A stretch of DNA of 31,112 nt from a virus. The position numbers and the translations under genes were made by a program. The notes beneath the pieces were generated by a model. That model saw nothing but the letters and a program-made list of their open reading frames with translations. It was not told where the DNA came from and did no database searches. The DNA is taken from positions 1 to 31,112 of IMG/VR virus record IMGVR_UViG_3300021142_001705. One strand, 5' to 3'. Shown here in pieces: positions 1 to 26,962 of the stretch (position 1 is its first letter; each line of letters begins with the position of its first letter).

Positions 1-380
1 ATTTGAAAGCGCATTTCTTTCACTGGAATGTGGAAGGAATTCACTTCCAAGAATTACATGCCTTGTTTGAAACTATCTACACTGAAGTGTATGGCACGGT
101 GGATGAATTTGCAGAAAAGATTCGTAGCCTGGGTGGTTATGCTCCTGGGTCAAACAGTCGTTTCAGTGTGCTAAGTCAAATCGATGACGAAATTGAAGTT
201 GTTCCGGCCGAAGCAATGATACGGGAACTGTTGGAAGATACTGCCAAAATGATGGTCATACTCAAGCGTGTGTATGACATGGCCGAAACACAAGGCGAAC
301 ACGGTTTTAGTAACTTTTTGGCCGAGCGCATGGATGCATTTAGAAAACACGCATGGATGTTGAGAGCGAGCACAAAATGA
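1..380 (+). CDS. dps: Dps/ferritin-like protein, 5'-truncated
   Basis: The first complete codon is at base 3 and the start lies upstream of the window, so about 126 C-terminal residues are visible. They follow the Dps pattern: HFFHWNVEG near the start, then a second His in F-x-E-L-H, then V-D-E-F-A-E-K-I-R-S-L-G-G. These supply the His, His, Asp and Glu that bind iron at the Dps subunit interface. Dps proteins oxidise Fe(II) with peroxide, store the iron and often shield DNA. The stop overlaps the next start (ATGA at 377-380), so it belongs to the same transcript as the tagged genes downstream. Whether it carries the same N-terminal tag cannot be seen. Its likely role is to protect phage DNA from oxidative damage; packaging in the head is only a guess. 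Confidence 0.8.
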   Translation, partial: LKAHFFHWNVEGIHFQELHALFETIYTEVYGTVDEFAEKIRSLGGYAPGSNSRFSVLSQIDDEIEVVPAEAMIRELLEDTAKMMVILKRVYDMAETQGEHGFSNFLAERMDAFRKHAWMLRASTK

Positions 381-766
381 AAATAAAAGAAATAATAATC
401 GAATCTGACATTCCAGCACAACCCACCATGCTACCCAAGGATCGCACCGCTGGTCTCAAAGGCCCACTGAGCTTGCCAGCATTGAGTCAAAACAAGTCTA
501 ATGGCAGCAGCTACATGCAGTATAGATTTGGATTGGCCTTAGCCGGAGCGCCCGATATTCCTACTCCGGCTGTGGGTGCATTCAGTGGTGATCCTTATGC
601 ATCAACCTATACCGATGTCGAACGCGAAATGATTGATTTTGCTCTAGATCAGGTGGGTGGTGGAAAAGCACTAGAAATGGGCGATAATCGCAGTCGCGAA
701 GATGATCATGTGCATCATGTAAGTCCAGTGCGCCAAGTTGGGGCTATTGTCTTAAAGAAGAAATAA
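377..766 (+). CDS. Small protein with capsid-targeting-like N-terminus (paralogue A)
   Basis: The start at 377 is chosen because the ATG overlaps the previous stop (ATGA) and gives the N-terminus MKIKEIIIE, shared in form with several neighbours. An in-frame ATG at 353 would lie inside the Dps gene. The product is 129 residues. After the tag it has a low-complexity Pro/Ser/Gly stretch, then a segment around YMQYRFGLALAGAP, a YTDVEREMIDFAL helix and a C-terminal VHHVSPVRQVGAIVLKKK. The next gene repeats this layout, so the two are tandem paralogues. I recognise no enzymatic domain. By analogy with T4 internal proteins, which start MKTYQEFIAE, it could be a small internal head protein cut after I-I-E. 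The function is unknown. Confidence 0.7.
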   Translation: MKIKEIIIESDIPAQPTMLPKDRTAGLKGPLSLPALSQNKSNGSSYMQYRFGLALAGAPDIPTPAVGAFSGDPYASTYTDVEREMIDFALDQVGGGKALEMGDNRSREDDHVHHVSPVRQVGAIVLKKK

Positions 767-1149
767 TGAAAATACATGAAATTATTAACGAAATGAAGTT
801 GGGTAAAATACCTCCGGGGCATAAAGAAGCCACTGCTAAAGGTATTCATTTGTTCATGGACCCAGATGGATGGGACAATGATCACCATCTAGAACGTGTG
901 ATGCGAGCCGCTGCCATGGCAGACGGCAGTGATGACCCAATTGATGTAGACAATAACAGTTTTGTTGGCAAGTACAATATTGCGTATCCTTATACCGAGG
1001 TGGAAAGTCGCATGATGAAACAGGCGTTTCGGGCACTGGGATCTGATACCTACAGTCATCAGGAACACAAGACCAGTCAAGAGCAGGAAACAGTTCATAA
1101 AACCAGTCCGACTCGTCAGGTTGGTGCAATAACACTCAAGAAAAAATAA
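766..1149 (+). CDS. Small protein with capsid-targeting-like N-terminus (paralogue B)
   Basis: The 127-residue product begins MKIHEIINE and starts in a TAATG overlap with the previous gene. It shares with that neighbour a central helix (LERVMRAAAMADG versus MQYRFGLALAGAP), a YTEVESRMMKQAF segment and the C-terminal pattern VHKTSPTRQVGAITLKKK. The middle is acidic and His-rich (D-P-D-G-W-D-N-D-H-H). No catalytic motif is evident. The terminal lysine codons form an A/G-rich stretch that may serve as ribosome-binding site for the gene starting at 1151. Likely role by context: a small packaged or head-associated protein. This is inference from the tag only. Confidence 0.7.
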   Translation: MKIHEIINEMKLGKIPPGHKEATAKGIHLFMDPDGWDNDHHLERVMRAAAMADGSDDPIDVDNNSFVGKYNIAYPYTEVESRMMKQAFRALGSDTYSHQEHKTSQEQETVHKTSPTRQVGAITLKKK

Positions 1150-1150
1150 C

Positions 1151-2950
1151 ATGAAGTCTATAGAGTTTGATCGTGCCTGTCAGTTATTTGAAGATACCAA
1201 TCAGTTTGTGCATCGGTATCTGCCGTGGCTGAAAGATCAATTGCAACTAGATCAATTGCCCAATATACAACTACTGGCCAAACCCGAAGATCAAACATTT
1301 GGCAAATACGGAGATGGCAAATTGTACGTGGTCACTGGTGGTCGACATCCAGTTGATGTGTTGCGTACCTTGGCACACGAACTAACTCATTACAAACAGG
1401 ACTTAGATGGTAAACTCAACCCTGAATCAGGCGAGACTGGTAGTGAAGAAGAAAACGAAGCAAATTCAAATGCCGGCATAATCATGCGTGCGTTTGCCAA
1501 GGCACATCCCGAAGAACTGGGACTCGATCCCAAACTTAAAGAAGACTTTACTGGTTGCGCCAAACCCGGATCAAGACCGGGCAGTCTACGTCGCAAGGCC
1601 GGTCTTAAAAAAGGTGAAACCATGCGCAACAGTGACCTAATGCGACTGCATGGTCGAGCCAATGAAATGAAACGCAGCAACAACAAGGCCACTCGCGAAC
1701 GCGGAGTGCAACTGGCACGTCAGGTTCAGTGGTACAAAAATTTCCACAAAACCAAGAGTCAAGCCGAAGGCGCTGTAAACGAAGATGCAGTGGCTGACTT
1801 GAAAAAAGATCTAAAAAATCCACACAGTTACAATGCCATCGATCACATGATGAAAGCCATTGCCAAGAAACACAAAATGACTCCCAAACAACTGCACGAT
1901 AAATTTGTCAACAAAACCGGTGATATTCCTGACAACTGGATCAAACAAACCACTAAAGAGGACATCAGTCGTCGCGGATTCATGCGCGGTGCTATAGGTG
2001 CTGGTGTTGCAGCCGCAACTGGTGGAGCATTGGCCAAAACTGCCAGACAACCTGCAGAGTTGCCCATGACCGGATACTATCAAGTATGGATAAAACCTGG
2101 CGACACTATTTATAGTATAGCACGTAGTACCGCATCCGATCCACATGATATAATGAAACTCAACGGGTTTGACAATAAAACCCGTCTTGAAAAAGGACAA
2201 CTGGTCAAGATTCCTGAATATGGCAAGCATCCCGAATATCCCTTAAAGGCACAACAGGCAAAAGCAGCAGCTGCGCCAGTGGCACAACCGCCAGTAGTGC
2301 CGGGTAAAAGCATATATGCTGATCCTGCCGACGCTGGTGTTGACCGCAGTCGAAAAACAGCAGAACCGGTAAAATCCACAGACATTCCTAAATCAATAGC
2401 AGTCAATAATCCCAAGAGTGCGTTAAACGAACCCGGGTTCATGGACAAGTTAAAAGACGTGGCACATAGACTTGGACTTGAAGTAAATGCGTTAATTGGA
2501 ATTATCGGGCACGAAACCATACGTACATTTAGTCCTTCAATTCAAGCACCCGACAAAATTACAAAAGACGGACAACGTGTACCCGGAGCAGTGGGACTTA
2601 TACAATTCACACACGGCACCGCAAAAGATTTGGGAACAAGTACAGAAGAACTCAAGCGCATGAGTGGTACTCAACAACTGGACTATGTGTACAGATTTCT
2701 TAAAAGGTCTTCTCGACCTGGTATGGACGCCGGAGATCTTTACATGAGTATATTCATACCGGCCTATGTGGGACGCGATCCAAGAACAGTGATAGCTAAG
2801 GAAGGTGGCGGAAGATTACCCGGTACTGGTTTAAATATGGATCAAATCTGGAGAGATAATCCTGAATTTGGTAAACACAAACACAAGAGTTATTTTACAA
2901 TTCAAGACGTCAAAAACACTTTAGCGAACTTTATGAATGTGCCGCGATAA
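1151..2950 (+). CDS. Multidomain metallopeptidase / LysM / lytic transglycosylase-like protein
   Basis: The 599-residue product has a composite architecture. Residues 1-15 (MKSIEFDRACQLFED) are tag-like. Residues 67-85 contain LAHELTH, an HExxH zinc-peptidase motif (His76, Glu77, His80). Residues about 138-200 are basic (RPGSLRRKAG and an Arg/Lys-rich helix). Residues 273-298 look like a twin-arginine signal (SRRGFMRG, then an Ala/Gly-rich hydrophobic run). Residues 309-355 fit a LysM peptidoglycan-binding repeat. Residues about 430-530 fit a lytic transglycosylase domain, with Glu455 in IIGHET and the AVGLIQF motif at 480-486. The parts suggest cell-wall degradation, perhaps during entry. 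An internal Tat-like signal would work only after proteolysis; V-N-E|D at 209-212 is a plausible prohead-protease site. Domain assignments are by motif; the processing is inference. Confidence 0.75.
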   Translation: MKSIEFDRACQLFEDTNQFVHRYLPWLKDQLQLDQLPNIQLLAKPEDQTFGKYGDGKLYVVTGGRHPVDVLRTLAHELTHYKQDLDGKLNPESGETGSEEENEANSNAGIIMRAFAKAHPEELGLDPKLKEDFTGCAKPGSRPGSLRRKAGLKKGETMRNSDLMRLHGRANEMKRSNNKATRERGVQLARQVQWYKNFHKTKSQAEGAVNEDAVADLKKDLKNPHSYNAIDHMMKAIAKKHKMTPKQLHDKFVNKTGDIPDNWIKQTTKEDISRRGFMRGAIGAGVAAATGGALAKTARQPAELPMTGYYQVWIKPGDTIYSIARSTASDPHDIMKLNGFDNKTRLEKGQLVKIPEYGKHPEYPLKAQQAKAAAAPVAQPPVVPGKSIYADPADAGVDRSRKTAEPVKSTDIPKSIAVNNPKSALNEPGFMDKLKDVAHRLGLEVNALIGIIGHETIRTFSPSIQAPDKITKDGQRVPGAVGLIQFTHGTAKDLGTSTEELKRMSGTQQLDYVYRFLKRSSRPGMDAGDLYMSIFIPAYVGRDPRTVIAKEGGGRLPGTGLNMDQIWRDNPEFGKHKHKSYFTIQDVKNTLANFMNVPR

Positions 2951-2951
2951 T
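2938..2951 (+). repeat. 14-bp direct repeat, left copy
   Basis: TGTGCCGCGATAAT occurs here across the stop codon of the 1151-2950 gene and again at 4056-4069, immediately after the stop of the 2997-4055 gene. The two copies exactly bracket the promoter and oxygenase-like gene between them, as expected for an inserted cassette. Confidence 0.75.
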
Positions 2952-2961
2952 TAATGTTAAT

Positions 2962-2990
2962 TTGACATTGTTGACAGATATTGCTATACT
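2962..2990 (+). promoter_or_regulatory. Sigma-70 type promoter
   Basis: TTGACA at 2962-2967 and TATACT at 2985-2990 are separated by exactly 17 bp. The expected transcription start is close to 2997, which is also the ATG of the oxygenase-like gene, so the mRNA would be leaderless or nearly so. No Shine-Dalgarno sequence lies between the -10 box and the ATG. Confidence 0.7.
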
Positions 2991-2996
2991 ATTTAA

Positions 2997-4055
2997 ATGA
3001 CCTCTATCTGTAAAATTATTACCAAACCTGAAACTGTACTAACTGTACGATTACGTAACGGTAAAGTTGATGAGACTGTTGCCACTGCACAAGAATTTCA
3101 ATTGCTAGATGATTGGCAATTGATTGAAATTATTGATTCTGAAATCAAAGAAATTGAAATTCAATCAATCTCAATTGATAACGAAGACCTCGGCGAACTG
3201 CTTTATACCAGTTGGGCCACTGATGGCAGCAAAAGAAAATTTCAACCTTGCACCAGTTTAAACAACAAATTTATTCGATGGTCAATGGTGTTGCATTCTG
3301 ACGTTAGCGCATTCAAAGAAAGATTGTGTAATCAAGTGGTTAACGGAGATTTTGGTAAAAATTTATTTGAGCATTATCAATGGTTTTTAGATCTAGCAGA
3401 AAATTTATCGCAATCAACTAACAGCAATAACCTTGATAAATTCATGCAAAGATCACAAGGACTGAATTTATATCCCAAGCACAGTTACTATCTTTGGCCG
3501 TTTATCAGTTTAGACATACCAATAGATCAATTGGCAATATACGAAGAAATACAAAATCTAGAACGAATTTCGGCAGGCTCACGCAGTCCAGGATGGTCAC
3601 GCAAAGATTACACTGCAGATGTACTTGGATCTTTAGAATTACCACAAACTAAAAAATGGTTGGCTGATATAGGAGTTGCTGGACTGGGTCACGTTAATCC
3701 GGCACTTTTAAAATCCCGTGGTTATATCAATTTGCATCGCGATTTTGATCAAGACCATAGAGGCAAATACTGGGATCCACACATACAAGGAATGCCGCCG
3801 CCGGAACGAGGAATAGGAATAGATATAATACACGTGCCTTTATTGGGCAATGAACAAGTAAAATTAAAAGTGTCTGGCGGTGGTATCATGCCCAATACTG
3901 CCAATTTACTCAATCATGCTGCATATGCTCATGCAGCCGTCAACGAAGGCTATAACGACCGATACGTGCTTATAATTTATGCTGTCTGGACCGATGAATT
4001 TGTTCAAAAATATCTGATTCCAACCGAGATTTATTGCAATCTAGATATAGCATAG
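2997..4055 (+). CDS. Fe(II)/2-oxoglutarate oxygenase-like protein (aspartyl/asparaginyl hydroxylase type)
   Basis: The 352-residue product has a C-terminal half with the H-x-D...H...R arrangement of 2OG oxygenases: INLHRDF (His237, Asp239), His317 or His322 in LLNHAAYAHAA, and Arg332 in DRYVLIIYAVW. The spacing resembles aspartyl/asparaginyl beta-hydroxylase-like proteins. The N-terminal 200 residues carry no motif I recognise. Family members hydroxylate protein side chains or small molecules; the substrate here is unknown. The gene has its own strong promoter directly upstream, lacks the N-terminal tag of its neighbours and is bracketed by 14-bp direct repeats. That suggests it was inserted into the tagged-gene cluster as an independent unit. 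Confidence 0.6.
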   Translation: MTSICKIITKPETVLTVRLRNGKVDETVATAQEFQLLDDWQLIEIIDSEIKEIEIQSISIDNEDLGELLYTSWATDGSKRKFQPCTSLNNKFIRWSMVLHSDVSAFKERLCNQVVNGDFGKNLFEHYQWFLDLAENLSQSTNSNNLDKFMQRSQGLNLYPKHSYYLWPFISLDIPIDQLAIYEEIQNLERISAGSRSPGWSRKDYTADVLGSLELPQTKKWLADIGVAGLGHVNPALLKSRGYINLHRDFDQDHRGKYWDPHIQGMPPPERGIGIDIIHVPLLGNEQVKLKVSGGGIMPNTANLLNHAAYAHAAVNEGYNDRYVLIIYAVWTDEFVQKYLIPTEIYCNLDIA

Positions 4056-4069
4056 TGTGCCGCGATAAT
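4056..4069 (+). repeat. 14-bp direct repeat, right copy
   Basis: This is the second copy of TGTGCCGCGATAAT, beginning on the base after the oxygenase-like gene's stop codon. Recombination between the copies would remove one repeat, the promoter and the whole gene, and rejoin the tagged-gene cluster. Confidence 0.75.
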
Positions 4070-4091
4070 CAATAAAGCTCGTCTGCCAATT

Positions 4092-4163
4092 CGTTGTTGC
4101 CTAGGGGAGAGATATGGAAAATCCTCAGGTTCTTCAAATCTTTATCTCCCCATATCGCAACGG
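4092..4163 (+). promoter_or_regulatory. Intergenic structured RNA, possible bistable hairpin
   Basis: The gap between the oxygenase and amidoligase genes contains two competing stems. GGGGAGA (4104-4110) pairs with TCTCCCC (4145-4151), and GATATGG (4111-4117) pairs with CCATATC (4150-4156). They share bases 4150-4151, so both cannot form together. An outer CGTTG (4092-4096) / CAACG (4158-4162) pair fits the second stem. The first stem would cover a Shine-Dalgarno-like GGGGAG and the second would cover an ATG at 4114. The pairings are seen in sequence; the regulatory role is inferred. Confidence 0.4.
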
Positions 4164-4179
4164 CACAGGGTATTTGTGA
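4114..4179 (+). CDS. Possible 21-residue leader peptide
   Basis: An ATG at 4114 follows a good ribosome-binding site (GGGGAGAG at 4104-4111) and opens a short frame beginning MENPQVLQIF and ending GTGYL at TGA 4177-4179. The stop lies 10 nt before the amidoligase ATG at 4190, which has no ribosome-binding site of its own. Translation of this peptide could therefore feed ribosomes to the amidoligase start. The peptide resembles nothing I know and the frame may be fortuitous. Confidence 0.3.
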   Translation: MENPQVLQIFISPYRNGTGYL

Positions 4180-4189
4180 TAAATACTCA

Positions 4190-6208
4190 ATGCGTTTTAC
4201 ACAAATAAACAAAGCCGTAATACAAAAACAAGAACTTGACGAAGTTCGCATGAGTCCCACTGCGTTTGCTGATGCTGTCAAACAAGGTGACACTCAAGGT
4301 GTTTTGGTGGGATTTGAATTTGAAATCTGTGCCCCCAAATCAACTGTTCAAGGAAATTTTGGTGGCAATACCAACACTGATGCTAACCCTCGCGATCCGC
4401 GTGAACAGATGCAACATGATTTTGAACAATTTGAAATTTTTGACTACAGAAGTTTTAAAAATGTTACCATCAGTGAATTTGATCAAACACTTAAACTAAA
4501 AAAACCCTTGGGCGGTTACACCAGCATGGCCGAAGCACTGGCCGCATATTCAGCAAAGACTTTGACCCAAGCCAAGGAATCGTTTAGCCAATTGCCCGAA
4601 GACCTACGTATAAAATACAAAAAGACCGCAATAGACCGAGCCAAATACAAACAAGCGGAATATCCCTATCCCGATAAAAAGATTGGAACGCAGTTGTGGT
4701 TTGCTAAATCATTGGGCGATTTGATTTTTTCTCGAGAATTAGATTATCGAACTCCGCGCAAACGAGACAGTCGAGCCCGTCACCAACTTTATGATACGGT
4801 TATAAAATTAACAAACCTATCAGTTCCCAACGACTGGGATACATTTTTTGACGAAATAATACCTCCAGAATTGCGTGGATCCATGCGCGGTAGCCTATTT
4901 ATAGCACGCCATCTAAACGAATACTTTGACTATGATCTTGAGCAAGTTGAAAAAGTGTTTGATTTAGAACAGGCAAGAGACGATTATAGAGAATACGACG
5001 ATGAGTGGAACGAAGATGATTCTATTTACATGGATCTTTCTTTGGTATTACAACCTGTGGTAGAAAAAACCATGGGACGACGAGTTACAGTGTTTGGCGA
5101 TTATCACGAGAATACAAAGAACATGACCGACTGGTACATCGAGCCTGATGGCAGTATCATACCTGATGGTGACGACTATGATGGTTGTGCAGAAATTGTC
5201 AGTCCACCGTTACCGGCCCTGGAAGCCATGACCGTGCTGACTAAATTTTATTCCATGGCCAAACAATTGCGTCTTTACACCAATTCCTCAACTGGCCTGC
5301 ATATCAATGTCAGTATTCCCCAAGAACTAGACGTATTAAAACTTGCTGTGTTCTTGGGTGAAGAACGAGTACTCGAATACTTCAAACGCGAGGACAATAT
5401 TTTTGTACAAAGCATATTGAAACATCTCAAGAGCTCGGGACCGCGACAGGCATTTGTACAAAGTCGACCCGGAGAACCAGCCAAGCCCACTGTTCTCAAA
5501 TTGCCGTTGTTGCAACACATGGCACAAGAATTTAGTAGACAACACAAGGCCAGCATCAGTTACAACGGTACTTATGTGAGTTTCAGACATGCCGGAGGTG
5601 ATTATTTAAACGACTACAACAGTATTGTACAATTAGTAGGACGTTTTGTTCGAGCCATGATCATTGCTGCTGATCCTGCGGTATACCGAAATGAATACAT
5701 AACCAAATTGACACAGTTGGTGGGCGGTGTTCCTGCAACAAACCTTGATCACAGTGCAGAGCTTCAACAATTACGAACACAGGGAATACCGATTTATACG
5801 GTTACTGCATGGAATAACAAAAATAGAACTGCAAAACAAATTATCAACAACATATCATCGGTATTTAAACAAAAAAATTCCAAGTTAATCGTTGCCGGAT
5901 TTGGGCCTGCTGGTGAAACTGGAAAAGATAACATGTTGAGAAAAGCTGACCATGATTTTCTCACATTGAAGCGAGCTCTTGAAAAAGCCAACCCATCAGA
6001 CTTTATAACTATACAAGTTTATAATTCTGACGGAATTAAAAATATCAACTTGGGCGCAACAACTTCAATTGGTTCGCAATTTTTTGTAGTAGATAAAGGA
6101 ATGTTACCTTCCAATACTGCAATAGCACAACAAATTATAAAACAAAAAATGCAACAAGCATACGGCACCGCAATTGCTGCACCAGTAAAGGTCAAGAAGA
6201 AAAAATGA
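4190..6208 (+). CDS. Amidoligase-like enzyme (GS/GCS fold, ATP-dependent COOH-NH2 ligase)
   Basis: Starting at 4190 the product has 672 residues. Its N-terminus, MRFTQINKAV followed by QELDE, is only loosely like the neighbours' tags. The core matches the phage amidoligase family: GVLVGFEFEICAP (Glu43, Glu45), then the acidic D-G-S-I-I-P-D-G stretch followed by CAEIVSPPL, then STGLHINVSI, the metal- and ATP-binding signatures of the glutamine synthetase-like fold. Members form amide or isopeptide bonds between carboxyl and amino groups. The last residues are VKVKKKK, encoded by an A/G-rich stretch that may act as ribosome-binding site for the next gene. The ATGA overlap couples it to a gamma-glutamyl-cyclotransferase-like gene, a pairing known for amidoligases. 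A longer reading from TTG at 4094 is possible but lacks a ribosome-binding site. Confidence 0.75.
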   Translation: MRFTQINKAVIQKQELDEVRMSPTAFADAVKQGDTQGVLVGFEFEICAPKSTVQGNFGGNTNTDANPRDPREQMQHDFEQFEIFDYRSFKNVTISEFDQTLKLKKPLGGYTSMAEALAAYSAKTLTQAKESFSQLPEDLRIKYKKTAIDRAKYKQAEYPYPDKKIGTQLWFAKSLGDLIFSRELDYRTPRKRDSRARHQLYDTVIKLTNLSVPNDWDTFFDEIIPPELRGSMRGSLFIARHLNEYFDYDLEQVEKVFDLEQARDDYREYDDEWNEDDSIYMDLSLVLQPVVEKTMGRRVTVFGDYHENTKNMTDWYIEPDGSIIPDGDDYDGCAEIVSPPLPALEAMTVLTKFYSMAKQLRLYTNSSTGLHINVSIPQELDVLKLAVFLGEERVLEYFKREDNIFVQSILKHLKSSGPRQAFVQSRPGEPAKPTVLKLPLLQHMAQEFSRQHKASISYNGTYVSFRHAGGDYLNDYNSIVQLVGRFVRAMIIAADPAVYRNEYITKLTQLVGGVPATNLDHSAELQQLRTQGIPIYTVTAWNNKNRTAKQIINNISSVFKQKNSKLIVAGFGPAGETGKDNMLRKADHDFLTLKRALEKANPSDFITIQVYNSDGIKNINLGATTSIGSQFFVVDKGMLPSNTAIAQQIIKQKMQQAYGTAIAAPVKVKKKK

Positions 6209-6918
6209 AAATATCAGAAATTCTAAGAGAAAACTTTGCTGATGGTAAAAATCCCGGACGCAAAGGTCTCGCTAAACGTAGTGGTGTTAATACCAAAGCC
6301 AGTGTAAGCAGTCTACGTAAAACTGCCAAACACTCAACTGGTGAAAAAGCCCGTATGGCACATTGGTTGGCCAACATGAAGGCCGGCAAAGCACGAGCTA
6401 AAGCAAAAAAGCATGAAAGTGTTGACGAAGGTCGAAATGCGGATGTGCCGGTATATTACTTTGCTTATGGCATGTTGACCGATCCACATCTGATGGAGGG
6501 TCTAGAACTAGTGGGAGTAGGCAAATTACGCAATTTCAAATACCATATGTATTCATGGGCCAATGTGGAACCCACACCGGGCGCTAAAGTATTGGGATGT
6601 TTATGGGCCATCGACCGTAGAGAAATTGCCAGACTGGACCAAGCCGAAGGATATCCCAGTCTGTATGATCGTAGAACCTATCCGGTGTATTGCAACGGCC
6701 AAAAATATCCAGCAGAAGTTTATGTAATGACTCCGCAAACACTAGAATATTGTCAAGGTTCTCAACCCAGCCAAGGTTATGTCAATAGAATAGTTCGTGG
6801 CTATAGAAATGCTGGCATTCCATTATCGCAATTGCAACATGCATTACAAATATCAGGAGTTGCCAAAACTCCAAAAAAAATTGCAAACGATCCCAGTCCT
6901 TGGGCAGATGACAAATGA
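6205..6918 (+). CDS. Gamma-glutamyl cyclotransferase-like (AIG2/GGCT) protein with tag and basic N-terminal module
   Basis: The 237-residue product starts MKISEILRE, a clear capsid-targeting-like tag. Residues 10-70 form a Lys/Arg-rich module (GRKGLAKRSG, then STGEKARMAHWLANMKAGK), followed by SVDEGRN at 72-78. The GGCT fold follows: VYYFAYGMLTDP at 83-94, and LDQAEGYPSLYDRR with the likely catalytic Glu148. GGCT enzymes release 5-oxoproline from gamma-glutamyl compounds. Next to an amidoligase it may edit or reverse gamma-glutamyl or similar amide links. V-D-E|G at 73-76 is a plausible second prohead-protease site that would free the enzyme from the tag and basic module. The gene is coupled by ATGA on both sides. 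Domain identity is fairly secure; packaging is inferred. Confidence 0.75.
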   Translation: MKISEILRENFADGKNPGRKGLAKRSGVNTKASVSSLRKTAKHSTGEKARMAHWLANMKAGKARAKAKKHESVDEGRNADVPVYYFAYGMLTDPHLMEGLELVGVGKLRNFKYHMYSWANVEPTPGAKVLGCLWAIDRREIARLDQAEGYPSLYDRRTYPVYCNGQKYPAEVYVMTPQTLEYCQGSQPSQGYVNRIVRGYRNAGIPLSQLQHALQISGVAKTPKKIANDPSPWADDK

Positions 6919-7262
6919 AAGCACGTGAATTTTTAAATAAGTTGCCCGAGTTTACCACTGCTTATCATATTACTACACGAGAAAATGCCGATAATATTCG
7001 ACACGGCGGATTAGATCCACGTGAAGAAGGCAAGGCCTATTTGGTGGTTGATGAGGGCGATCCTGCTAAACTCCGAGACGATTTACGCACTGTGGCCGGA
7101 TGGCTGTTAGAACGAGATAATGATGATCCATTGACATTATTAAAAATCAATGTCACAGGCGTACCCTTGGAATTTGAACATGGTTGGTATTTTTCTACAG
7201 TTGCTATACCATCTAATCGTATTAAAGATTTAGGCGAACGTGCATTTGCTCGAGTATCATAA
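6915..7262 (+). CDS. ADP-ribosyltransferase/KptA-like small protein
   Basis: The 115-residue product begins MKAREFLNKLPEF, a weaker version of the neighbours' tag. Residues 16-36 (AYHITTRENADNIRHGGLDP) match the H-x-T-x7-I-x3-G-L-x-P signature of the ADP-ribosyltransferase and RNA 2'-phosphotransferase fold, where the His contacts NAD or the phosphate. A short beta-rich remainder (LTLLKINV, HGWYFSTVAIP) is consistent with a compact ART-like domain, though the usual downstream catalytic residues cannot be assigned with certainty. T4 packages an ART (Alt) in its head and injects it to modify host RNA polymerase, so an ART-like protein in a tagged cluster is suggestive. ATGA and TAATG overlaps link it to both neighbours. 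Confidence 0.5.
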   Translation: MKAREFLNKLPEFTTAYHITTRENADNIRHGGLDPREEGKAYLVVDEGDPAKLRDDLRTVAGWLLERDNDDPLTLLKINVTGVPLEFEHGWYFSTVAIPSNRIKDLGERAFARVS

Positions 7263-7816
7263 TGCGTATTACAGAAATCATTACCGAACGCAGGCAAGCC
7301 ATGTTGCAATGGTTTCGACAGATATTGCCCAATTATCCTGACTATGTTATTCGAGATTTAATTTACAACTTTGGTCGTGGTCGTTGGCCCAAAAAATATT
7401 CCACGCTCAACAGAAACGAAGTAATACGCGGCCTGCAACTGCACCTGGGAATTGATGATAAGACAGAATGGAGATTAGAGCAATTGCCATTTACCCTAGA
7501 CATGTTTGTGCCTAGGGTACAGAAACAATTAGAAAAAGACATTGCCGAACAAACATCACGATTAAAATTTCAAAATGTATTACAAACTGCACAGGGCGTT
7601 GCCGAAAACGAACTTGACCCAAGAGATGACGACGAGCGTATGCAGATACAACGACGCCTGGCTCAACAGCAAGGTGGAGTTAGACAGGAACCAGTTATTT
7701 TGATCAAGCATCCGCAAGGATATATATTAATAGAAGGATGGCATAGAACCATACAACATTTTGTTGCATATCCCGAGGGATATCGTGGGCCAGCCTGGGT
7801 GGCTTATCCCAAATAG
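7262..7816 (+). CDS. Tagged protein with C-terminal ParB-like domain
   Basis: The 184-residue product starts MRITEIITE, the tag form. Residues 10-110 are helical and charged with no motif I recognise. VAEN at 113-116 followed by an Asp/Glu-rich linker could be a second prohead-protease site. Residues about 143-184 (EPVILIKHPQGYILIEGWHRTIQHF) resemble the ParB/Srx fold, whose hallmark G-x-H-R loop binds nucleotides; here it reads EGWHRT. Related domains occur in nucleases, CTPases and phosphotransfer enzymes. It is the last gene of the tagged cluster and is followed by a structured intergenic region. The ParB-like call is moderately supported and the function is unknown. Confidence 0.5.
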   Translation: MRITEIITERRQAMLQWFRQILPNYPDYVIRDLIYNFGRGRWPKKYSTLNRNEVIRGLQLHLGIDDKTEWRLEQLPFTLDMFVPRVQKQLEKDIAEQTSRLKFQNVLQTAQGVAENELDPRDDDERMQIQRRLAQQQGGVRQEPVILIKHPQGYILIEGWHRTIQHFVAYPEGYRGPAWVAYPK

Positions 7817-9119: not shown

Positions 9120-11780
9120 ATGAGTTACGTAGACGCACTGTTTGAACGTGCAAAAGATAGAATCCATGTAGTAGAACGAGTCAATGGCGAGCGTGTTTAT
9201 CGAGAATATCCGGCCAACTATGTTTTTTACTATGACGATCCTCGCGGCAAGCATCGTACCATATATGGTACACCGGTCACTAGATTTCACAGTCGTACCA
9301 GCAAAGAGTTCCAAAAAGAATTAAAAATAAACAGTCACAAACGTATATGGGAAAGTGACATCAATCCCATATTCCGATGTCTAGAAGAAAACTATCTCGG
9401 TGTTGATTCGCCCAAACTACAAACTGCATTTTTTGATATTGAGGTCGACTTTGATCCCGAACGTGGTTACAGTCGACCCGAAGATCCGTTTAATCCCATC
9501 ACCAGTATTTCGGTTTATCTAGACTGGATGGAAAAAATGATCACCTTGGTGGTTCCACCCAAAAGTTATTCGTGGGCCACTGCCGAAGAAATCTGCAGTC
9601 GATTTGACAACTGCTTCTTGTTTGAACGCGAAGAGGACATGTTGAACACTTTCCTCGAACTGGTGCAGGATGCAGATATTGTAAGTGGTTGGAACTCGGA
9701 AGGTTTTGATATTCCGTATACAGTTATGCGCATACACAAGGTACTGAGCAAGGACGACACACGAAGACTTTGTTTGTGGAATCAGTTTCCCAAACAACGT
9801 ATGTTTGAACGGTTTGGTGCAGAAAATCTCACATTTGACTTGATTGGTCGTGTTCACATGGATTATATGCAACTGTATAGAAAATACACTTACGAAGAGC
9901 GACACAGTTACAGTTTAGATTCGATTGCTGAATATGAATTGGGCGAACGCAAAACACAATACGAAGGCACACTGGACCAACTGTACAATAAAGATTTTCC
10001 GTTGTTTATTGAATACAATAGACAGGATACTATGATTATCGCCAAACTAGACAAGAAATTACGTTTCTTGGATCTAGCAAACGAATTGGCACACGATAAC
10101 ACTGTTTTACTTGCAACCACAATGGGTGCAGTGGCAGTTACCGAGCAAGCGATTATCAATGAAGCACATGCTCAAGGCATGATAGTACCTAACCGGAGAT
10201 CAAGAGATGACAAAGAACAAACCCAAGCCGCAGGTGCCTATGTTGCTTATCCCAAAAGAGGCATGCACGAATACATCGGCGCAATCGACATCAACTCGCT
10301 CTATCCCTCGGCTATTCGTGCCCTTAACATGGGACCGGAAACCATTGTTGGACAACTAAGACCCATAATGACTGATAAGTATATTGCAGACAAGGTGGCA
10401 GCTGGTGCCAGTTTTGCAGATGCATGGGAAAACATGTTTGGTAGTTTGGAGTATCAAGCGGTCATGTCCGGCGAAATCGGTACCGAAGTCACAATTGACT
10501 GGGAAGATGGATCAAGCGATGTCATGAGTGCCGCACAGGCCTGGAAATTGATATTTGACAGCAATCAACCCTGGACTGTGAGTGCCAATGGTACTATATT
10601 TAGATTTGACACAAAAGGAATAATTCCGGGATTATTGGAGAGATGGTATGCCGAACGAAAAGAAATGCAAGCAAAAAAGAAAGCCGCAACATCTACGGAA
10701 GAAACAGCGTTCTGGGACAAGCGACAACTTGTCAAAAAAATCAATCTCAACAGTCTCTACGGCGCTATTCTTAACGCCGGCTGTCGTTTCTTCGACCCAC
10801 GTATTGGTCAAAGCACAACGCTTACGGGCCGTATTATTGCAAAACACATGGATGCCTACGTCAATGAGTCAATCACGGGCGATTACGACCATACTGGCTC
10901 AGCTGTCATCTACGGTGACACAGACTCTGTCTACTTTACGGCGTGGCCGGCAATCAAAGAAGAAGTAGAGGCCGGACGCATGGAATGGAATCGAGAAATC
11001 TGTGTACAACTGTACGATACCATTGCCGAAGGTGTAAATGCCAGTTTTCCTGAATTTATGGAGCGTGCTTGCCACTGTCCGCGAGACATGGGTGCCATTA
11101 TCCGAGGCGGCCGTGAAATGGTGGCCAGCAAAGGTCTCTTTATTAAAAAGAAACGTTATGCAGTACTGATCTATGACATGGAAGGTGTGCGATTGGATGT
11201 GGGTGGTAAAAAGGGCAAAGTAAAAGCCATGGGCCTGGATCTAAAACGATCAGACACTCCCCGGGTAGTACAAGACTTTTTGAGCGACATTTTACAAGAC
11301 GTATTAACCGGTGCCGAGCGTGAAGCCATTGTGGACAAGGTTCGCGAATTTAAACTGTTGTTCAAGGATAGACCAGCATGGGAAAAAGGCACGCCCAAGC
11401 GTGTGAACAACTTGACCAAGTACACTGCCGAAGAACAACGACTAGGCAAAGCCAACATGCCGGGACACGTTAGAGCTGCAATGAACTGGAATAGACTAAA
11501 ACAAATGCATGGCGATAACTATTCAACTGCCATTGTTGACGGCATGAAAACCATTGTGTGTAAATTAAAAGATAATCCACTGGGACTTACCAGTGTCGGA
11601 TATCCTACCGATGTACTACACATTCCGCAATGGTTTAAAGAGTTACCATTTGATGATCAGCTGATGGAAAGTACCATTGTGGATCAAAAGGTAGAAAACT
11701 TGTTGGGTGTACTGGAATGGCATATTTCAGAAAGTACAAATATTAACTCATCTTTTGATGACCTTTTCTGTTTTGAATAA
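9120..11780 (+). CDS. 43: DNA polymerase, family B (gp43 type)
   Basis: The 886-residue product is full-length against T4 gp43 (898). Exonuclease motifs appear in order: FDIEVDF (Exo I), WNSEGFDIPY (Exo II) and YNRQDTMII (Exo III). Polymerase motifs follow: DINSLYPSAIR (A), KINLNSLYGAI (B) and VIYGDTDSVYF (C), then a KKKRY element. Both proofreading and polymerase active sites are therefore intact. It replicates the phage genome with the sliding clamp, probably encoded at 12767. The start at 9120 has a GGGAG ribosome-binding site about 7 nt upstream. If the DNA carries a 7-deazaguanine installed by DpdA after synthesis, this enzyme must also copy that template. No intein or split is present. 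Confidence 0.97.
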   Translation: MSYVDALFERAKDRIHVVERVNGERVYREYPANYVFYYDDPRGKHRTIYGTPVTRFHSRTSKEFQKELKINSHKRIWESDINPIFRCLEENYLGVDSPKLQTAFFDIEVDFDPERGYSRPEDPFNPITSISVYLDWMEKMITLVVPPKSYSWATAEEICSRFDNCFLFEREEDMLNTFLELVQDADIVSGWNSEGFDIPYTVMRIHKVLSKDDTRRLCLWNQFPKQRMFERFGAENLTFDLIGRVHMDYMQLYRKYTYEERHSYSLDSIAEYELGERKTQYEGTLDQLYNKDFPLFIEYNRQDTMIIAKLDKKLRFLDLANELAHDNTVLLATTMGAVAVTEQAIINEAHAQGMIVPNRRSRDDKEQTQAAGAYVAYPKRGMHEYIGAIDINSLYPSAIRALNMGPETIVGQLRPIMTDKYIADKVAAGASFADAWENMFGSLEYQAVMSGEIGTEVTIDWEDGSSDVMSAAQAWKLIFDSNQPWTVSANGTIFRFDTKGIIPGLLERWYAERKEMQAKKKAATSTEETAFWDKRQLVKKINLNSLYGAILNAGCRFFDPRIGQSTTLTGRIIAKHMDAYVNESITGDYDHTGSAVIYGDTDSVYFTAWPAIKEEVEAGRMEWNREICVQLYDTIAEGVNASFPEFMERACHCPRDMGAIIRGGREMVASKGLFIKKKRYAVLIYDMEGVRLDVGGKKGKVKAMGLDLKRSDTPRVVQDFLSDILQDVLTGAEREAIVDKVREFKLLFKDRPAWEKGTPKRVNNLTKYTAEEQRLGKANMPGHVRAAMNWNRLKQMHGDNYSTAIVDGMKTIVCKLKDNPLGLTSVGYPTDVLHIPQWFKELPFDDQLMESTIVDQKVENLLGVLEWHISESTNINSSFDDLFCFE

Positions 11781-13513: not shown

Positions 13514-15172
13514 ATGTTGATAGATGCAGGATTCTTGACCAAATGGGAGACCAAAGGTCACCGTTATGGCATGTGTATGAGTCATCCCGACCGGGACCTT
13601 GCGTATATCAATATTCCAAAAAATGCCACGTCGTGGACCAAACCCAATTTACGTGATTGGAATTGGGAAGTTTACAACTATCATCACGACAGTTTTATAC
13701 GAGATAAAACAAAGATTGTGGCCTTGCGTGAACCCATTGATCGCTGGATCAGTGGTATTGCTGAATATTTTGCTTTGTACTATCAATCGTATACACCAGA
13801 TGATATGACTCCGATGTTGATTGACATGGTGTTTGATCAAGTCACATTTGACGATCATACCGAACAACAGACACATTTCTTACACGGTCTTGATACTGAC
13901 AGTTGTGTATTTTTAAAATGCAACAGTGCCTATAGAATTAACTTTGGTAGGTTACTCAAAGAACACAGTATGATGAACAATTATGAAAATTATAATTATC
14001 AGAACACCAGTGGAGAAAGTCCGATTCGGAATCGATGGAAAGAATTTTTCAGTGAGCAAATTGAAAAACAACCAGAATATTTTGAACGTCTTAGAAGATA
14101 TTTTTCTGCCGACTACGAGTTGTACAACACAGTCAAATACTATGGCAGCGATCATCCCTTAAACTTGTCAGTGTTGGCCACCTTTGGTTCTAATTATCCG
14201 CGTGGCGCACATTATACCGGTCCCGAGATTGCCAACAAATGTGATATGCCATGGAAAAGTCTAAGCATTGATAGATCTGGCAATTGTTTTGTATGCATAT
14301 GCGAAGCGCATTTGCCAATACCGATCGGCAAGATCAACGATTTTGGCAATTTACGAGACATTTGGACCAATGATCAAACTCAGCAACTGCAACAGACCAT
14401 TACAGATAAGAAATTTACCTACTGTGCAATTGAACATTGTGGTATAACACAGGCACCCATCAAGTTGGATGAATATCGAATATCGGTCAATATTGACGAA
14501 AGTTGCAATCTAGCCTGCCCCAGTTGTAGACGTGCCCCGGTCAATCATACCACGGGAGATTATTTTGAAAAAAGCAAATCACAGGTAGAGCATTTTGTAA
14601 AATTACTTAACAATTTTAGATTACCACTTTATCTTACCATGACCGGAAACGGTGATCCTTTGGCCAGTTTAATCATGAGGCCGTTAGTTCTGGATTGGCA
14701 ACCGCGGGCTCGACAACGTGTGCAGTTGTTTACTAACGGACACTTGATGAAAAAATTATTGCCCGACAGCACAATTCTAAATAACATATCAGATTTTAAA
14801 ATAAGTGTAGATGCTGGTAGCGAAAGTGTGTATGAAAACGTGCGCAAGCCCGGCAAATTCAAAAATCTTAGAGAAAATCTAGATTGGTTGGCTGAAAATC
14901 GTCGACCTGGAGTAAATGTGCGTTTGATGTATTGCTTACAGGCTGCCAATGCCAATGATGTTGTAAATTTTGCAGAAATGTGTAATAATTACAACTTTAT
15001 TGGAGAGATTACAAAACTAGACAATTGGTTTACTTTTGATGATTTCAACAGCCAAAATGTTGTGGACAATCGCGCACATCCGTTGAGATCTACAGCCATT
15101 GATCAATTGAGACAAATTCAAGACCGGCCCAACATAGTGCTGTCTAATCCTGTTAAACGAATATTATTATGA
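13514..15172 (+). CDS. Fusion protein: sulfotransferase-like, SPASM, radical SAM
   Basis: The 552-residue product begins directly after the clamp stop codon. Residues 1-210 look like a sulfotransferase: YINIPKNATSW at 31-41 fits the 5'-phosphosulfate loop, LREPIDRWISG at 71-81 the 3'-phosphate site, and a YFSADYELYN segment ends the domain. Residues 243-309 hold Cys243, Cys258, Cys261, Cys263, Cys304 and Cys309, a SPASM-like auxiliary Fe-S domain. Residues 322-450 form a radical SAM core with Cys331-x3-Cys335-x2-Cys338, a TGNGDPL segment and SVDAGSESVYENVRKPGKF. SPASM normally follows the radical SAM core, so the order is inverted. ATGA overlap with dpdA suggests a role in the same operon, possibly base or peptide modification. 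The substrate is unknown. Confidence 0.75.
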   Translation: MLIDAGFLTKWETKGHRYGMCMSHPDRDLAYINIPKNATSWTKPNLRDWNWEVYNYHHDSFIRDKTKIVALREPIDRWISGIAEYFALYYQSYTPDDMTPMLIDMVFDQVTFDDHTEQQTHFLHGLDTDSCVFLKCNSAYRINFGRLLKEHSMMNNYENYNYQNTSGESPIRNRWKEFFSEQIEKQPEYFERLRRYFSADYELYNTVKYYGSDHPLNLSVLATFGSNYPRGAHYTGPEIANKCDMPWKSLSIDRSGNCFVCICEAHLPIPIGKINDFGNLRDIWTNDQTQQLQQTITDKKFTYCAIEHCGITQAPIKLDEYRISVNIDESCNLACPSCRRAPVNHTTGDYFEKSKSQVEHFVKLLNNFRLPLYLTMTGNGDPLASLIMRPLVLDWQPRARQRVQLFTNGHLMKKLLPDSTILNNISDFKISVDAGSESVYENVRKPGKFKNLRENLDWLAENRRPGVNVRLMYCLQAANANDVVNFAEMCNNYNFIGEITKLDNWFTFDDFNSQNVVDNRAHPLRSTAIDQLRQIQDRPNIVLSNPVKRILL

Positions 15173-16827
15173 CTACAAAAAGAGATGACCTAACTGCCAA
15201 GCAAAAAGACTACGCAGTATTCCTTCCGGCCATTAGTGGCTTTTATGCCACTTTTATAGGTAAACAACGCAACGAGCCGTATGTGGATCCCAAACGTTTT
15301 CCGCAGGGGTTGACTGACTTGGAGCAAATGAATTGGCTTAACAGTCAACAGGCATTATTTCCCTACAAATGGAGTCTATACTCGGGCGGACATGCCAACT
15401 TGGACTTGACCAAACCAGACTGGAGTGAAGACATGGTGCGTAATCGAGATCCTGCAACCACTCTACTGGGCGACTCAGGTGGATTCCAAATTGCCAAGGG
15501 ATTATGGGAAGGCGAGTGGCGTGATCCCAACAGTGCAGAAGTTCAAAACAAACTTGCTTATCTAAAAACACAAACAGTAACACGTAAAAAAGGCAAAAAA
15601 GATCTAGCAGTCAACCTTGGCGACGAATATCAAAAACTGATTGATGCAGCACAAAAGAAACGTGAAGCAGTGCTCAAGTGGTTGGATGGTATTGCTGATT
15701 ATGGTATGACGCTAGATATTCCCACATGGGTCATACATGATCCTAAGGCCAGTGCAGCTTGTGGTATCACCACACTTGAAGAAGCAGTGGATGCCACAAA
15801 GTACAATAACGAATACTATATAAAACACAGGAAAGGTGTCAAGGAAGGTGGTATGCGTGTGTTGAACGTGCTGCAAGGTGCCAATCATGATGACGCAGAT
15901 CGTTGGTATGATACCATGAAGCACTATTGCGATCCCAAACAATACCCCGGACGTCACTTTGATGGATGGGCCATGGGAGGACAAAACATGTGTGATGTTC
16001 ATCTAATCTTGAGAAGATTGATAGCATTAAAGTATGACGGTTTGTTAGAGACTGGTGTACATGATTGGATGCACTTCTTGGGCACAAGCAAATTGGAATG
16101 GGCTGTATTGCTTACTGTTATCCAACGTGCAGTAAGAAAATATCACAATCCCAATTTTACTATCAGTTTTGATTGTGCGAGCCCGTTTTTGGCAACTGCT
16201 AACGGACAGGTCTATTACGAAAATGTATTTCCGCATCAAGGCAAATGGAGTTATCGAATGAAACCCAGTGCAGATGATAAAAAATACAGCACAGATACTC
16301 GTCGCTGGGGCACGGGAGTTGTGGCCGATGGTTATTATCCAAGATGGACTGACAGTCCCATCAGTGACTTGATGACCATGCGAGATATTTGTATATACAA
16401 GCCTGGTGACCTAAACAAAAATGGCAAAGAAGGCCGAACAAGTTGGGATAGTTTCAGTTATGCATTATTAATGGGGCACAATGTTTGGATGCATTTGACT
16501 GCAGTACAGGAAGCCAATCGACGTTTTGATGCAGGCGAGTATCCGCTCATGATGGAATACAGTTCGCCCAATCGAGACCGATTTGCTGACATTGTGGAGC
16601 GTATATTTGCTGCGCCTACTCGAGCCAAATCTGAAGCCATTATCAAACAGTACTTTTGGTATTGGATGGAAATTATTGGCGGTCGTGGTAACACCGGCAC
16701 TTCGGCATTGAACTCGAGTCCGGCATTCAATGATCAATTTGAAGTAGAAACTGACGTTGAGTCTGAGGATGAAAATGAAATGACACTTGATGAAACCAAA
16801 TTAGAAGCATTAGAGGAAACTGTATGA
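15169..16827 (+). CDS. dpdA: DpdA-like 7-deazaguanine DNA transglycosylase
   Basis: The 552-residue product resembles the tRNA-guanine transglycosylase superfamily in its phage DpdA branch. GDSGGFQ at 101-107 is the substrate-pocket motif with Asp102, and Asp183 in GMTLDIPTWVIHD is a candidate nucleophile or second aspartate. The HFDGWAMGGQNMCD and GVHDWMHFLG segments fit the barrel's later strands. DpdA replaces guanine in DNA with a 7-deazaguanine such as preQ0, which protects phage DNA from restriction. The phage carries folE, queD and queE to make the precursor. The C-terminal 30 residues are acidic. ATGA overlaps at both ends place it in a coupled operon of at least five genes. The exact base cannot be read from sequence. 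Confidence 0.8.
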   Translation: MTTKRDDLTAKQKDYAVFLPAISGFYATFIGKQRNEPYVDPKRFPQGLTDLEQMNWLNSQQALFPYKWSLYSGGHANLDLTKPDWSEDMVRNRDPATTLLGDSGGFQIAKGLWEGEWRDPNSAEVQNKLAYLKTQTVTRKKGKKDLAVNLGDEYQKLIDAAQKKREAVLKWLDGIADYGMTLDIPTWVIHDPKASAACGITTLEEAVDATKYNNEYYIKHRKGVKEGGMRVLNVLQGANHDDADRWYDTMKHYCDPKQYPGRHFDGWAMGGQNMCDVHLILRRLIALKYDGLLETGVHDWMHFLGTSKLEWAVLLTVIQRAVRKYHNPNFTISFDCASPFLATANGQVYYENVFPHQGKWSYRMKPSADDKKYSTDTRRWGTGVVADGYYPRWTDSPISDLMTMRDICIYKPGDLNKNGKEGRTSWDSFSYALLMGHNVWMHLTAVQEANRRFDAGEYPLMMEYSSPNRDRFADIVERIFAAPTRAKSEAIIKQYFWYWMEIIGGRGNTGTSALNSSPAFNDQFEVETDVESEDENEMTLDETKLEALEETV

Positions 16828-21997: not shown

Positions 21998-22575
21998 CAT
22001 TCGAAACTTTATTTCAATTTGAACAAGAACTAGCCCAATTTACTGGTGCTCCTTATGCGGTTGTAACTGATGGATGTACCCATGCATTAGAACTGTGTTT
22101 TATTCATGATCGGGTTGAATTTTGTGCTTTTACTCCGTACACATACCTGAGTATCTTGATGCTGATGCGACAGTTAAAAATACAATATCAATTTGAAGAC
22201 TCTGGGCCCTGGACCGGAGAATATAGATTTAGAAAAACTCGAATTTGGGATAGTGCTAGATTGTTAAGGCCCGGTATGTACCGAACTGGACAGGTACAAT
22301 GTGTAAGTTTTGGACATGGAAAGCCTTTACAACTGGGACGAGGTGGTGCTATACTAACTGATGATCCCGAATTATATAAATGGGCCAGCCTTGCACGCAG
22401 TGATGGTCGAGATCTTAGAATCTCTCCTTGGGAATCTCAAGAAACATTTGCACAAGGATATCACTATTGCCCCACATTAGAACTTTGTGAACAAGGCCTA
22501 AATAAATTGTCAACAGCGGATACCGAACCTAAATATCATCAATATCCCGATTTAAGGAAAATAAATGTACGATAA
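21994..22575 (+). CDS. Half-length DegT/DnrJ-like aminotransferase-related protein
   Basis: The start at 21994 (ATGA overlap with galE) gives 193 residues, about half the 370-residue family length. The N-terminus FEQELAQFTGAPYAVVTDGCTHALELCF matches the substrate/PLP region, and SFGHGKPLQLGRGGAILTDD holds the lysine that normally binds PLP. The C-terminal domain is missing and the frame ends cleanly over the next gene's ribosome-binding site, so it looks evolved rather than broken. Similar half-length proteins occur, as I recall, in marine phages. It may act as a dimer on sugar nucleotides or have lost catalysis. Confidence 0.6.
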   Translation: MTFETLFQFEQELAQFTGAPYAVVTDGCTHALELCFIHDRVEFCAFTPYTYLSILMLMRQLKIQYQFEDSGPWTGEYRFRKTRIWDSARLLRPGMYRTGQVQCVSFGHGKPLQLGRGGAILTDDPELYKWASLARSDGRDLRISPWESQETFAQGYHYCPTLELCEQGLNKLSTADTEPKYHQYPDLRKINVR

Positions 22576-26470: not shown

Positions 26471-26962
26471 ATGACAACATACAAATACGTTAGTACAAAA
26501 GAATACCACGATGCATTTCCATGTGCGTATCGTCAATGGCGAGCTGACAGTCATTGTAATACGATTCATGGATATAGTTTCAGTATGAAGTTTTACTTTG
26601 AGACTGATATACTAGATGCACGTAATTGGGTAGCCGACTACGGTGGCCTAAAAGAATTGAAACGGGTATTAGAAGATCAATTTGATCATACGCTACTTGT
26701 AGCACAAGACGATCCCGAGCTTGAAACATTTAAACTGTTAGAAACTAAAAAAATGGCCAAACTGACCATCCTACCACGTTTAGGATGTGAAGGATTGGCT
26801 GATATGCTTTACAAATATGTAAATGGTGTTTACATTCCTGATATGTGGGGCCCAGGTGAAGCTGAACGTTTGTGGTGCTTTAGAGTAGAAGTAAGAGAAA
26901 CACAATCAAACATGGCCTATAGAGAAGGACATAGAGAGGACAACGAGGACTTGTTTGCCTAA
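26471..26962 (+). CDS. queD: 6-carboxytetrahydropterin synthase-like
   Basis: The 163-residue product belongs to the PTPS/QueD family. AYRQWRADSHCNTIHGYSF contains the catalytic Cys29 and His33; the canonical H-G-H zinc motif reads H-G-Y here, as I recall for a phage subgroup. ARNWVADYGGLKELKRVLEDQFDHTLLV matches the conserved D-x3-L...D-H segment, and FRVEVRET ends the fold with its Glu. QueD converts dihydroneopterin triphosphate to carboxytetrahydropterin, step two of preQ0 synthesis. It has its own promoter and AGGAG site and precedes queE by three small genes. Changed zinc ligation could alter activity. Confidence 0.85.
   Translation: MTTYKYVSTKEYHDAFPCAYRQWRADSHCNTIHGYSFSMKFYFETDILDARNWVADYGGLKELKRVLEDQFDHTLLVAQDDPELETFKLLETKKMAKLTILPRLGCEGLADMLYKYVNGVYIPDMWGPGEAERLWCFRVEVRETQSNMAYREGHREDNEDLFA

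Follow-up and report, generated by a model that had tools for sequence, protein, structure and literature searches.

In a 31,112-nucleotide stretch of viral DNA (IMG/VR record IMGVR_UViG_3300021142_001705, positions 1 to 31,112; hereafter the window), several genes between positions 377 and 7816 encode products that begin with a common nine-residue sequence, which we call the tag, and this N-terminus is very probably a capsid-targeting propeptide of the T4 type that marks head-loaded cargo delivered together with the DNA. In the mechanism that we propose, tagged proteins would join the scaffolding core of the prohead, and an S77 (gp21-type) prohead protease would cut after the hydrophobic-x-Glu that ends the tag, so that the cargo would stay in the head. 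The protease would also split longer cargos at domain boundaries, yielding an enzyme domain and small basic modules that may compact DNA or tether cargo, and the cargo would enter with the DNA and act early on the host. A head-loaded set had been proposed in an initial annotation made from the letters of the window, and it is supported by tag enrichment in related phages, by agreement of the tag end with the cuts in gp24 and in the major capsid protein (MCP), and by the presence of tagged homologues in virions. Taken together, head loading of the tagged proteins is strongly supported by inference: loading and tag removal would follow from the T4 paradigm and from the proteomics of homologues, while tag cleavage in the window phage, injection, early action on the host and the functions of the cargo are inferred.

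An N-terminal tag shared by unrelated proteins

All four clear tags that the initial annotation had read, in the products of the genes at 377, 766, 6205 and 7262, are present at those starts (Table 1). Tags were counted with a strict pattern (M[KR], two or three residues, [DE], two hydrophobic residues, any residue, E), which was built from the tags of the window and of T4 before any were counted in relatives; start codons were called blind to the tag, and the expectation for the window was taken from shuffled residues 2-31. Three of the 49 window genes carry the strict form against 0.01 expected, the gene at 766 being absent as a fourth because the caller picked a later start, and no window gene outside 377-7816 matches it.

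When viral contigs were scanned with the 6205 product, 80 loci were obtained; leaving out the one that matches the window gave a first set of 1153 non-redundant genes from 79 loci. The strict form stands at 80 of these 1153 gene starts against 0.14 expected, that is, at 6.9% of starts compared with 0.09% of internal methionines. In a second set of loci, retrieved with another protein, the count was 76 of 954 genes, again against 0.14 expected. The two sets comprise 158 related environmental loci, across which the enrichment is about 500-fold over chance; tag enrichment ahead of unrelated domains in related phages is the check that the initial annotation had suggested for its proposal.

With a looser form of the tag, 217 non-redundant proteins were collected, and these group into 53 clusters, in which 15 or more different Pfam domains are represented. 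When 60 tagged representatives were aligned, the alignment was confined to about the first nine residues, with a mean column identity of 6%. The families represented include ParB_N, phage lysozyme, GH19, LysM, SLT, peptidase M48 and zeta toxin/AAA, and further tagged families are cytidine deaminase, pol-beta nucleotidyltransferase, Gp23 itself and others. These figures bear out the earlier claim of a tagged set rather than one family; shared ancestry of the full-length proteins, considered as the source of the tag, was ruled out by the number of clusters and the low column identity.

The consensus of the tag is M-[RK]-[AI]-x-E-[FI]-[IL]-x-E with a small residue next, and position P3 is I, L or V in 149 of 153 cases. 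The DNA that encodes it is distinct in 148 of 155 cases, with synonymous variation, and selection therefore acts on the protein; a DNA-level start element was rejected as the basis of the tag on the same count. More broadly, the shared N-terminus could serve another purpose, for instance as a DNA element for translation start or regulation or in membrane or export targeting, with the likeness to T4 arising by convergence. The A-rich codons of the tags, typical of gene starts, and the twin-arginine (Tat)-type signals that come after some tags fit such a purpose, but the constraint is on residues, the same site also lies far within proteins, at places that call for no start element, and the tagged genes of cyanophage S-CREM2 all encode virion proteins. 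We consider this explanation extremely improbable.

The tag end and T4-type cuts

T4 gp24, which starts MAKINELLRE↓STTT (arrows mark cuts), has nearly the same residues at the same length as the window tags. The prohead protease strips the first ten residues of gp24 (PMC9958956), and the leader of the T4 internal proteins works alike and is sufficient for loading foreign proteins (PMC10229621). The initial annotation had matched the tags to this leader; their T4 type stood, but the nearest T4 sequence is the gp24 propeptide rather than the leaders of the internal proteins.

The tag ends in hydrophobic-x-Glu, the same form as the gp24 and MCP cuts, and in relatives the head genes follow the T4 order and include an S77 prohead protease, which is present in G001, G005, G013, G014 and G015 and in T4-like isolates. 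G013 encodes an MCP with the sequence ...KYLSE↓SATAGATSSGNVATLN as well as a small tagged protein with MKIRDILE↓SATAGATSSANVGTVV, the presumed cut ...E↓SATAGATSS being shared by both; the tag end is therefore the expected cut position of the phage's own capsid protein. Similar MCP junctions read PLME↓NATAGATSSGNVAVLN in Atu_ph07 and PLME↓TATAGATSAGNVATLN in Phosso. Small tagged proteins that copy the start of the mature MCP (SATAGATSSxN...) were also seen at L038:210-467 (= G013:210-467), L005:11064-11261, L045:11256-11438 and elsewhere, and the S-CREM2 virion protein ORF160 holds GFTGAAAPEGPVAGYDP, which resembles the capsid protein of that phage.

In its family B DNA polymerase (PolB) the window shares 79% identity with G001 and 72% with G014, and many neighbouring genes keep their order; the tagged array lies upstream of the same 86-residue gene and PolB. 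G001 and G014 each encode an S77 protease, a portal, a scaffold and a Gp23-type capsid protein, and PolB similarity thus appears to tie the window to lineages with T4-type heads.

Tagged homologues in cyanophage virions

Hundreds of T4-like cyanophages encode homologues of the tagged environmental nucleotidyltransferases (MKLRELFEAEAKHIAFCFGRMNPPTIGH), and tagged cytidylyltransferases occur in the published virion proteomes of S-CREM2, S-SZBM1 and S-SM1, with the tags MKNFSSFLTE↓A (S-CREM2 ORF154), MRFRQFIIE↓A (S-SZBM1_140) and MKKFSAFLNE↓A (S-SM1 T4-GC190). The cyanophage form of the tag is found in 5 of 237 called S-CREM2 genes against 0.07 expected, and all five are among the 48 of 237 genes in the virion list (Fisher P = 2.9e-4), as given in the virion protein table for this phage (PMC10665884). 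The five encode a SAM hydrolase, an APH/ChoK kinase, a cytidylyltransferase and two hypothetical proteins. The initial annotation had named a lack of such proteins in virion proteomics as a result that would speak against it; what was found is their presence, in S-CREM2 as in S-SZBM1 and S-SM1. S-CREM2 ORF12 (OR473000 7704-10313, minus strand), a virion protein annotated as Cas9, has LRFASFMAEAA, a tag-like stretch, close to the N-terminus; the real start of this protein may lie further in, and it may be tagged cargo as well.

The virion data bear on a different view, in which the tag would be an element for prohead-core binding or assembly and the tagged proteins would be scaffold or core parts that are degraded or expelled at maturation, not injected cargo. 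T4 gp67, gp68 and gp22 are cut to small peptides (PMC9958956), small core proteins of the phages studied here have tag-like starts (MLIAEMFDSAPEGYY, MKLTELFNPLTESYY), and the basic modules described below could be spacers that get lost. However, the tagged SAM hydrolase, kinase and cytidylyltransferase are still present in mature virions of cyanophages, and folded enzyme domains such as gamma-glutamyl cyclotransferase (GGCT), deaminase, M48 and GH19 have no evident scaffold role, so that we regard a purely structural fate of the tagged proteins as unlikely.

Cut-site motifs at internal domain boundaries

The earlier reading missed that the cut site recurs inside proteins, at domain boundaries. 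A basic module (NFADGKNPGRKGLAKRSGVNTKASV..., module A) lies within about the first 66 residues of the 6205 product and is usually C-terminal in unrelated proteins of other contigs. It always follows a Glu, whether N-terminal or internal (40 of 40 among the matches listed), and among internal copies 31 of 42 have a hydrophobic P3 exactly in place. Hydrophobic-x-E stands at a fixed distance from the DUF6321-type module B (26/27), module D (19/22) and module E (7/7), and control windows shifted upstream gave 11-14% for modules A, B and D. The ParB/sulfiredoxin-like domain of the 7262 product is internal in about half of its 31 relatives, and in all 31 Glu9 is invariant and P3 is I, L or V, with no other upstream conservation.

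In the window the GGCT domain lies within the chain (SVDE↓GRNADVPVYYF); in L002 it is at the N-terminus (MKINEITE↓GRNGDVPVYYF). The 1151-type peptidase and the 4190-type amidoligase, separate genes in the window, are domains of one 1411-residue G014 protein that combines nucleotidyltransferase, peptidase and amidoligase domains. Giant fused proteins of 988-1459 residues were observed at G014:274614-278849, L049, L052:7235 and L032:3368; they start MNIHELDSYNL or similar, join nucleotidyltransferase, peptidase and amidoligase to basic modules, and match separate genes of the window.

Because hydrophobic-x-E precedes domains at internal boundaries, many cargos are probably polyproteins cut in the prohead. 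The simplest reading of these sequences is that the prohead protease probably separates modules at the putative internal sites, and the 6205 product of the window, with its tag, basic module and GGCT domain, is probably one such candidate polyprotein. Alternatively, the tag and the internal hydrophobic-x-E could be linkers shuffled with domains by recombination, with no proteolysis and with the Glu as part of a mobile module. The P1 Glu does accompany module A and the 7262 domain in all contexts, as in a recombination unit; yet P3 stays hydrophobic even though P2, P4 and positions beyond them are free to change, the motif agrees with the cut established for T4 gp24 and with the one expected in the MCP of these phages, and, as a negative control, module B has neither tag nor site in HTVC027P, Skadi-1 and DSL-LC04, three small pelagiphages without the S77 protease. 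Shuffling without cleavage is thus very unlikely, and we retain cleavage by the prohead protease as the preferred reading. Module A had no match in isolate phages. DUF6321 (module B) occurs in 493 isolate phage records, and this RRKSFCARM module is part of long proteins in T4-like cyanophages; in pelagiphages it forms a protein by itself that lacks both tag and cut site, and it may be a peptide that binds DNA.

Several points weigh against protease-trimmed, head-loaded cargo. The window, a fragment, contains no head genes, and the virion evidence comes from tagged homologues in other phages rather than from the window phage, to which it would extend by analogy. The tag is short, and its form in cyanophages (MKxFxxFLxE) differs in detail from the MKIxEIIxE of the window. 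The S-CREM2 pattern that gave five of five was drawn up with the virion N-termini already known, albeit on the model of T4, S-SM1 and S-SRM01, and an earlier version with caller-chosen starts gave only two of two (P = 0.04); co-purification is noted as possible by the S-CREM2 authors (PMC10665884). The junction modules were chosen after being noticed, and the shifted-window controls are high for module C (13/27) and module E (8/21), at 38-48%. In isolate jumbo phages the strict tag is scarce, with one gene in Atu_ph07 and three in Phosso. Separately, small unrelated proteins of Atu_ph07 (NC_042013; 295-350, 32, 398 and 461 kb) have the recurrent starts MRLIDLLE, MRLFDLFE and MELRDLLE, which may be a jumbo-phage version of the tag, at just 2.6-fold over chance with a loose pattern.

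Tat-type signals at predicted cuts

Nine sense-coded proteins of the group carry a Tat-type signal, five directly after the tag and four inside the chain, with a Glu two to three residues ahead of the twin arginine in all nine and a hydrophobic P3 in eight; these nine cases are not independent and perhaps represent four lineages. The signals precede GH19-like, M48-like or LysM/transglycosylase-like domains, as where MRANEFVNE↓DMSRRGFLGALGAGAMAASGVAQA stands ahead of a GH19-like domain. The window's own case is internal to the 1151 product, where TKE↓DISRRGFMRGAIGAGVAAATGGALA precedes the LysM and transglycosylase-like domains. It has the twin-arginine motif S/T-R-R-x-F/L (DISRRGFMRGAIGAGVAAATGG) and a weakly hydrophobic stretch, matches PF10518 at E 0.0041 (below the curated cut-off), and its site has no hydrophobic P3. 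The signal lies at about residue 271, not at the N-terminus of the chain, and would be N-terminal solely after the TKE↓D cut. Other Tat-type segments are at L212:10572, L185:11658, L015:262, L151, L203, L078:12260, L052:5379 and L070:3642.

An internal Tat signal makes sense solely once the chain has been cut, and such cargos may therefore be exported in the new host. As a tentative extension, which we hold to be quite possible on the strength of these sequence patterns, the head protease would act as a cargo processor that turns polyproteins into enzymes and DNA-compacting basic modules, and some cuts would unmask a Tat signal by which a cell-wall enzyme or a periplasmic domain brought in with the head contents would reach the periplasm of the new host.

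Genes of the tagged array and their domains

Table 1. The tagged array of the window and the adjoining marker genes (predicted cuts are marked by arrows).
Feature	Position	Strand	Tag or leader (position)	Predicted cut	Remarks
Tagged protein, 129 aa	377..766	+	MKIKEIIIE (377-403)	IIE↓S
Tagged protein, 127 aa	766..1149	+	MKIHEIINE (766-792)	INE↓M	Paralogue-like relative of the 377 product
Multi-domain protein, 599 aa	1151..2950	+	Weak tag MKSIEFDRACQLFE (1151-1192)	MKSIEFDRACQLFE↓D; candidate internal cuts VNE↓D (residue 211) and TKE↓D (immediately ahead of Tat-like signal)	Domain order: HELTH-type metallopeptidase, basic segment, Tat-like signal (nt 1961-2023), LysM, lytic-transglycosylase-like
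Untagged protein within array	2997..4055	+
Amidoligase-like protein, 672 aa	4190..6208	+	Loose leader MRFTQINKAVIQKQELDE (4190-4243)	MRFTQINKAVIQKQELDE↓V
Tagged protein with two modules, 237 aa	6205..6918	+	MKISEILRE (6205-6231)	Internal SVDE↓GRN after residue 75	Conserved basic module NFADGKNPGRKGL... (6232-6429); GGCT domain (6430-6915)
Weakly tagged protein, 115 aa	6915..7262	+	MKAREFLNKLPE (6915-6950)	MKAREFLNKLPE↓F
Tagged ParB/sulfiredoxin-like protein, 184 aa	7262..7816	+	MRITEIITE (7262-7288)	ITE↓R
Synteny marker, 86 aa	8499..8759	+			Between tagged array and PolB; kept in related loci
PolB	9120..11780	+

The looser tags that the initial annotation had listed at 1151, 4190 and 6915 are real but weak within the window itself; they are insufficient alone because 28% of untagged genes have a hydrophobic-x-E ([ILVF]xE) within residues 5-20. 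Homologues of the 1151 peptidase have clear tags (MRASDFLAE↓G, MRASDFLAE↓N, MKVKELLNE↓S and MRTIDLFEE).

The proposed domains fared unevenly. The GGCT domain of the 6205 product matches PF06094 (4e-14), and in the 1151 product, described as a peptidase/transglycosylase, LysM was confirmed (PF01476, 6e-10) and PHROG matches are transglycosylase-like. The amidoligase assignment of the 4190 product has a sub-threshold match to PF12224 (E 5e-4), the ParB-like assignment of the 7262 product is weakly supported as a ParB/sulfiredoxin-like fold (VIA Z 5.8), and the ART-like domain claimed for the 6915 product was not confirmed; a sequence search of solved structures gave no convincing match for the 7262 and 6915 products. 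The 377 and 766 products belong to one family. A pattern scan with the 766 product alone gave no relatives, which BLAST among the fetched loci later supplied, and a search with the 4190 product matched just the window's own contig. From their domains, we would guess that tagged proteins take part in nucleotide or NAD chemistry (cytidylyltransferase, deaminase), act on host DNA or proteins (ParB-like and GNAT) or are cell-wall enzymes.

Immediately upstream of the array, at 3-380, lies a ferritin/Dps-like protein (PF00210), and a PF00210 protein also adjoins the array in G014 (283180-283620). Elsewhere in the window, genes at 15169-16827, 22565-23410, 26471-26962 and 27697-28539 resemble by eye a TGT/DpdA-type transglycosylase, GTP cyclohydrolase, QueD and QueE, and these four are likely a 7-deazaguanine DNA-modification set.

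Significance and comparison with known systems

Head-delivered proteins of T4-type phages are so far mostly known phage by phage via mass spectrometry, with contamination a constant concern. With a tag and a cut site, the probable delivered set of uncultured phages could be read from DNA, and hypothetical proteins and 'auxiliary metabolic genes' would become candidate effectors of the first minutes of infection that can be put to the test. Should the internal sites prove real, the head protease, long studied for its part in assembly, would gain a new role in processing polyproteins. The tag could also act as a ready loading signal for delivery via harmless T4-type particles. Searches of open-access literature on capsid targeting in cyanophages or jumbo phages gave T4, P1 and SPN3US work and no description of such a tag set in environmental or cyanophage genomes, an absence that is not proof, and text searches of open-access literature for the peptides SFCARM, SATAGATS and MKTYQEFIAE gave no paper.

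Cyanophage virion enzymes offer homologous material: T4-like cyanophages carry cytidylyltransferase/NMNAT, SAM hydrolase and APH/ChoK kinase in their virions, the cytidylyltransferase being homologous to the environmental one and the N-termini tagged. The papers that describe them leave packaging versus contamination open (PMC10665884, PMC9146016, PMC9602691, PMC3037559); in the portions of these papers available to us no common tag or cut site is reported, and the cargo set found here is broader.

Polyvalent proteins, described by Iyer, Aravind and colleagues, are big composite chains of effector-like domains, presumed to enter the cell together with the DNA (PMC7824862), and the window's 1151 and 6205 products and the G014 fusion likewise have several effector-like domains per chain. 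Polyvalent proteins as described are large multidomain chains, whereas here sites of the prohead-protease type lie between the domains in a T4-type head pathway, and the predicted cuts at domain boundaries would argue against delivery as one uncut chain. Giant phages of the SPN3US/phiKZ type are described as having many head-loaded ejection proteins whose propeptides are cut by the prohead protease (PMC5694885, PMC10052503); these we liken on the head loading and the cut propeptides.

The closest parallel is T4 itself, in which a capsid-targeting sequence marks the internal head proteins IPI-IPIII and Alt, and the internal proteins are injected and block host restriction (PMC9958956, PMC10229621, PMC12373910). 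As in T4, unrelated proteins share a short N-terminal leader that ends in a prohead-protease site, with loading into the head core a feature of T4; the T4 protein whose propeptide is most like the window tags, gp24, is a capsid vertex protein and not cargo. Unlike the T4 set, the proteins here form about 50 mostly enzyme-like clusters, and the cut site also stands at internal junctions, suggesting polyprotein cargo. The system works like the T4 internal head proteins and fits them in its tested features, and it differs from them in breadth, in cargo and in its internal sites.

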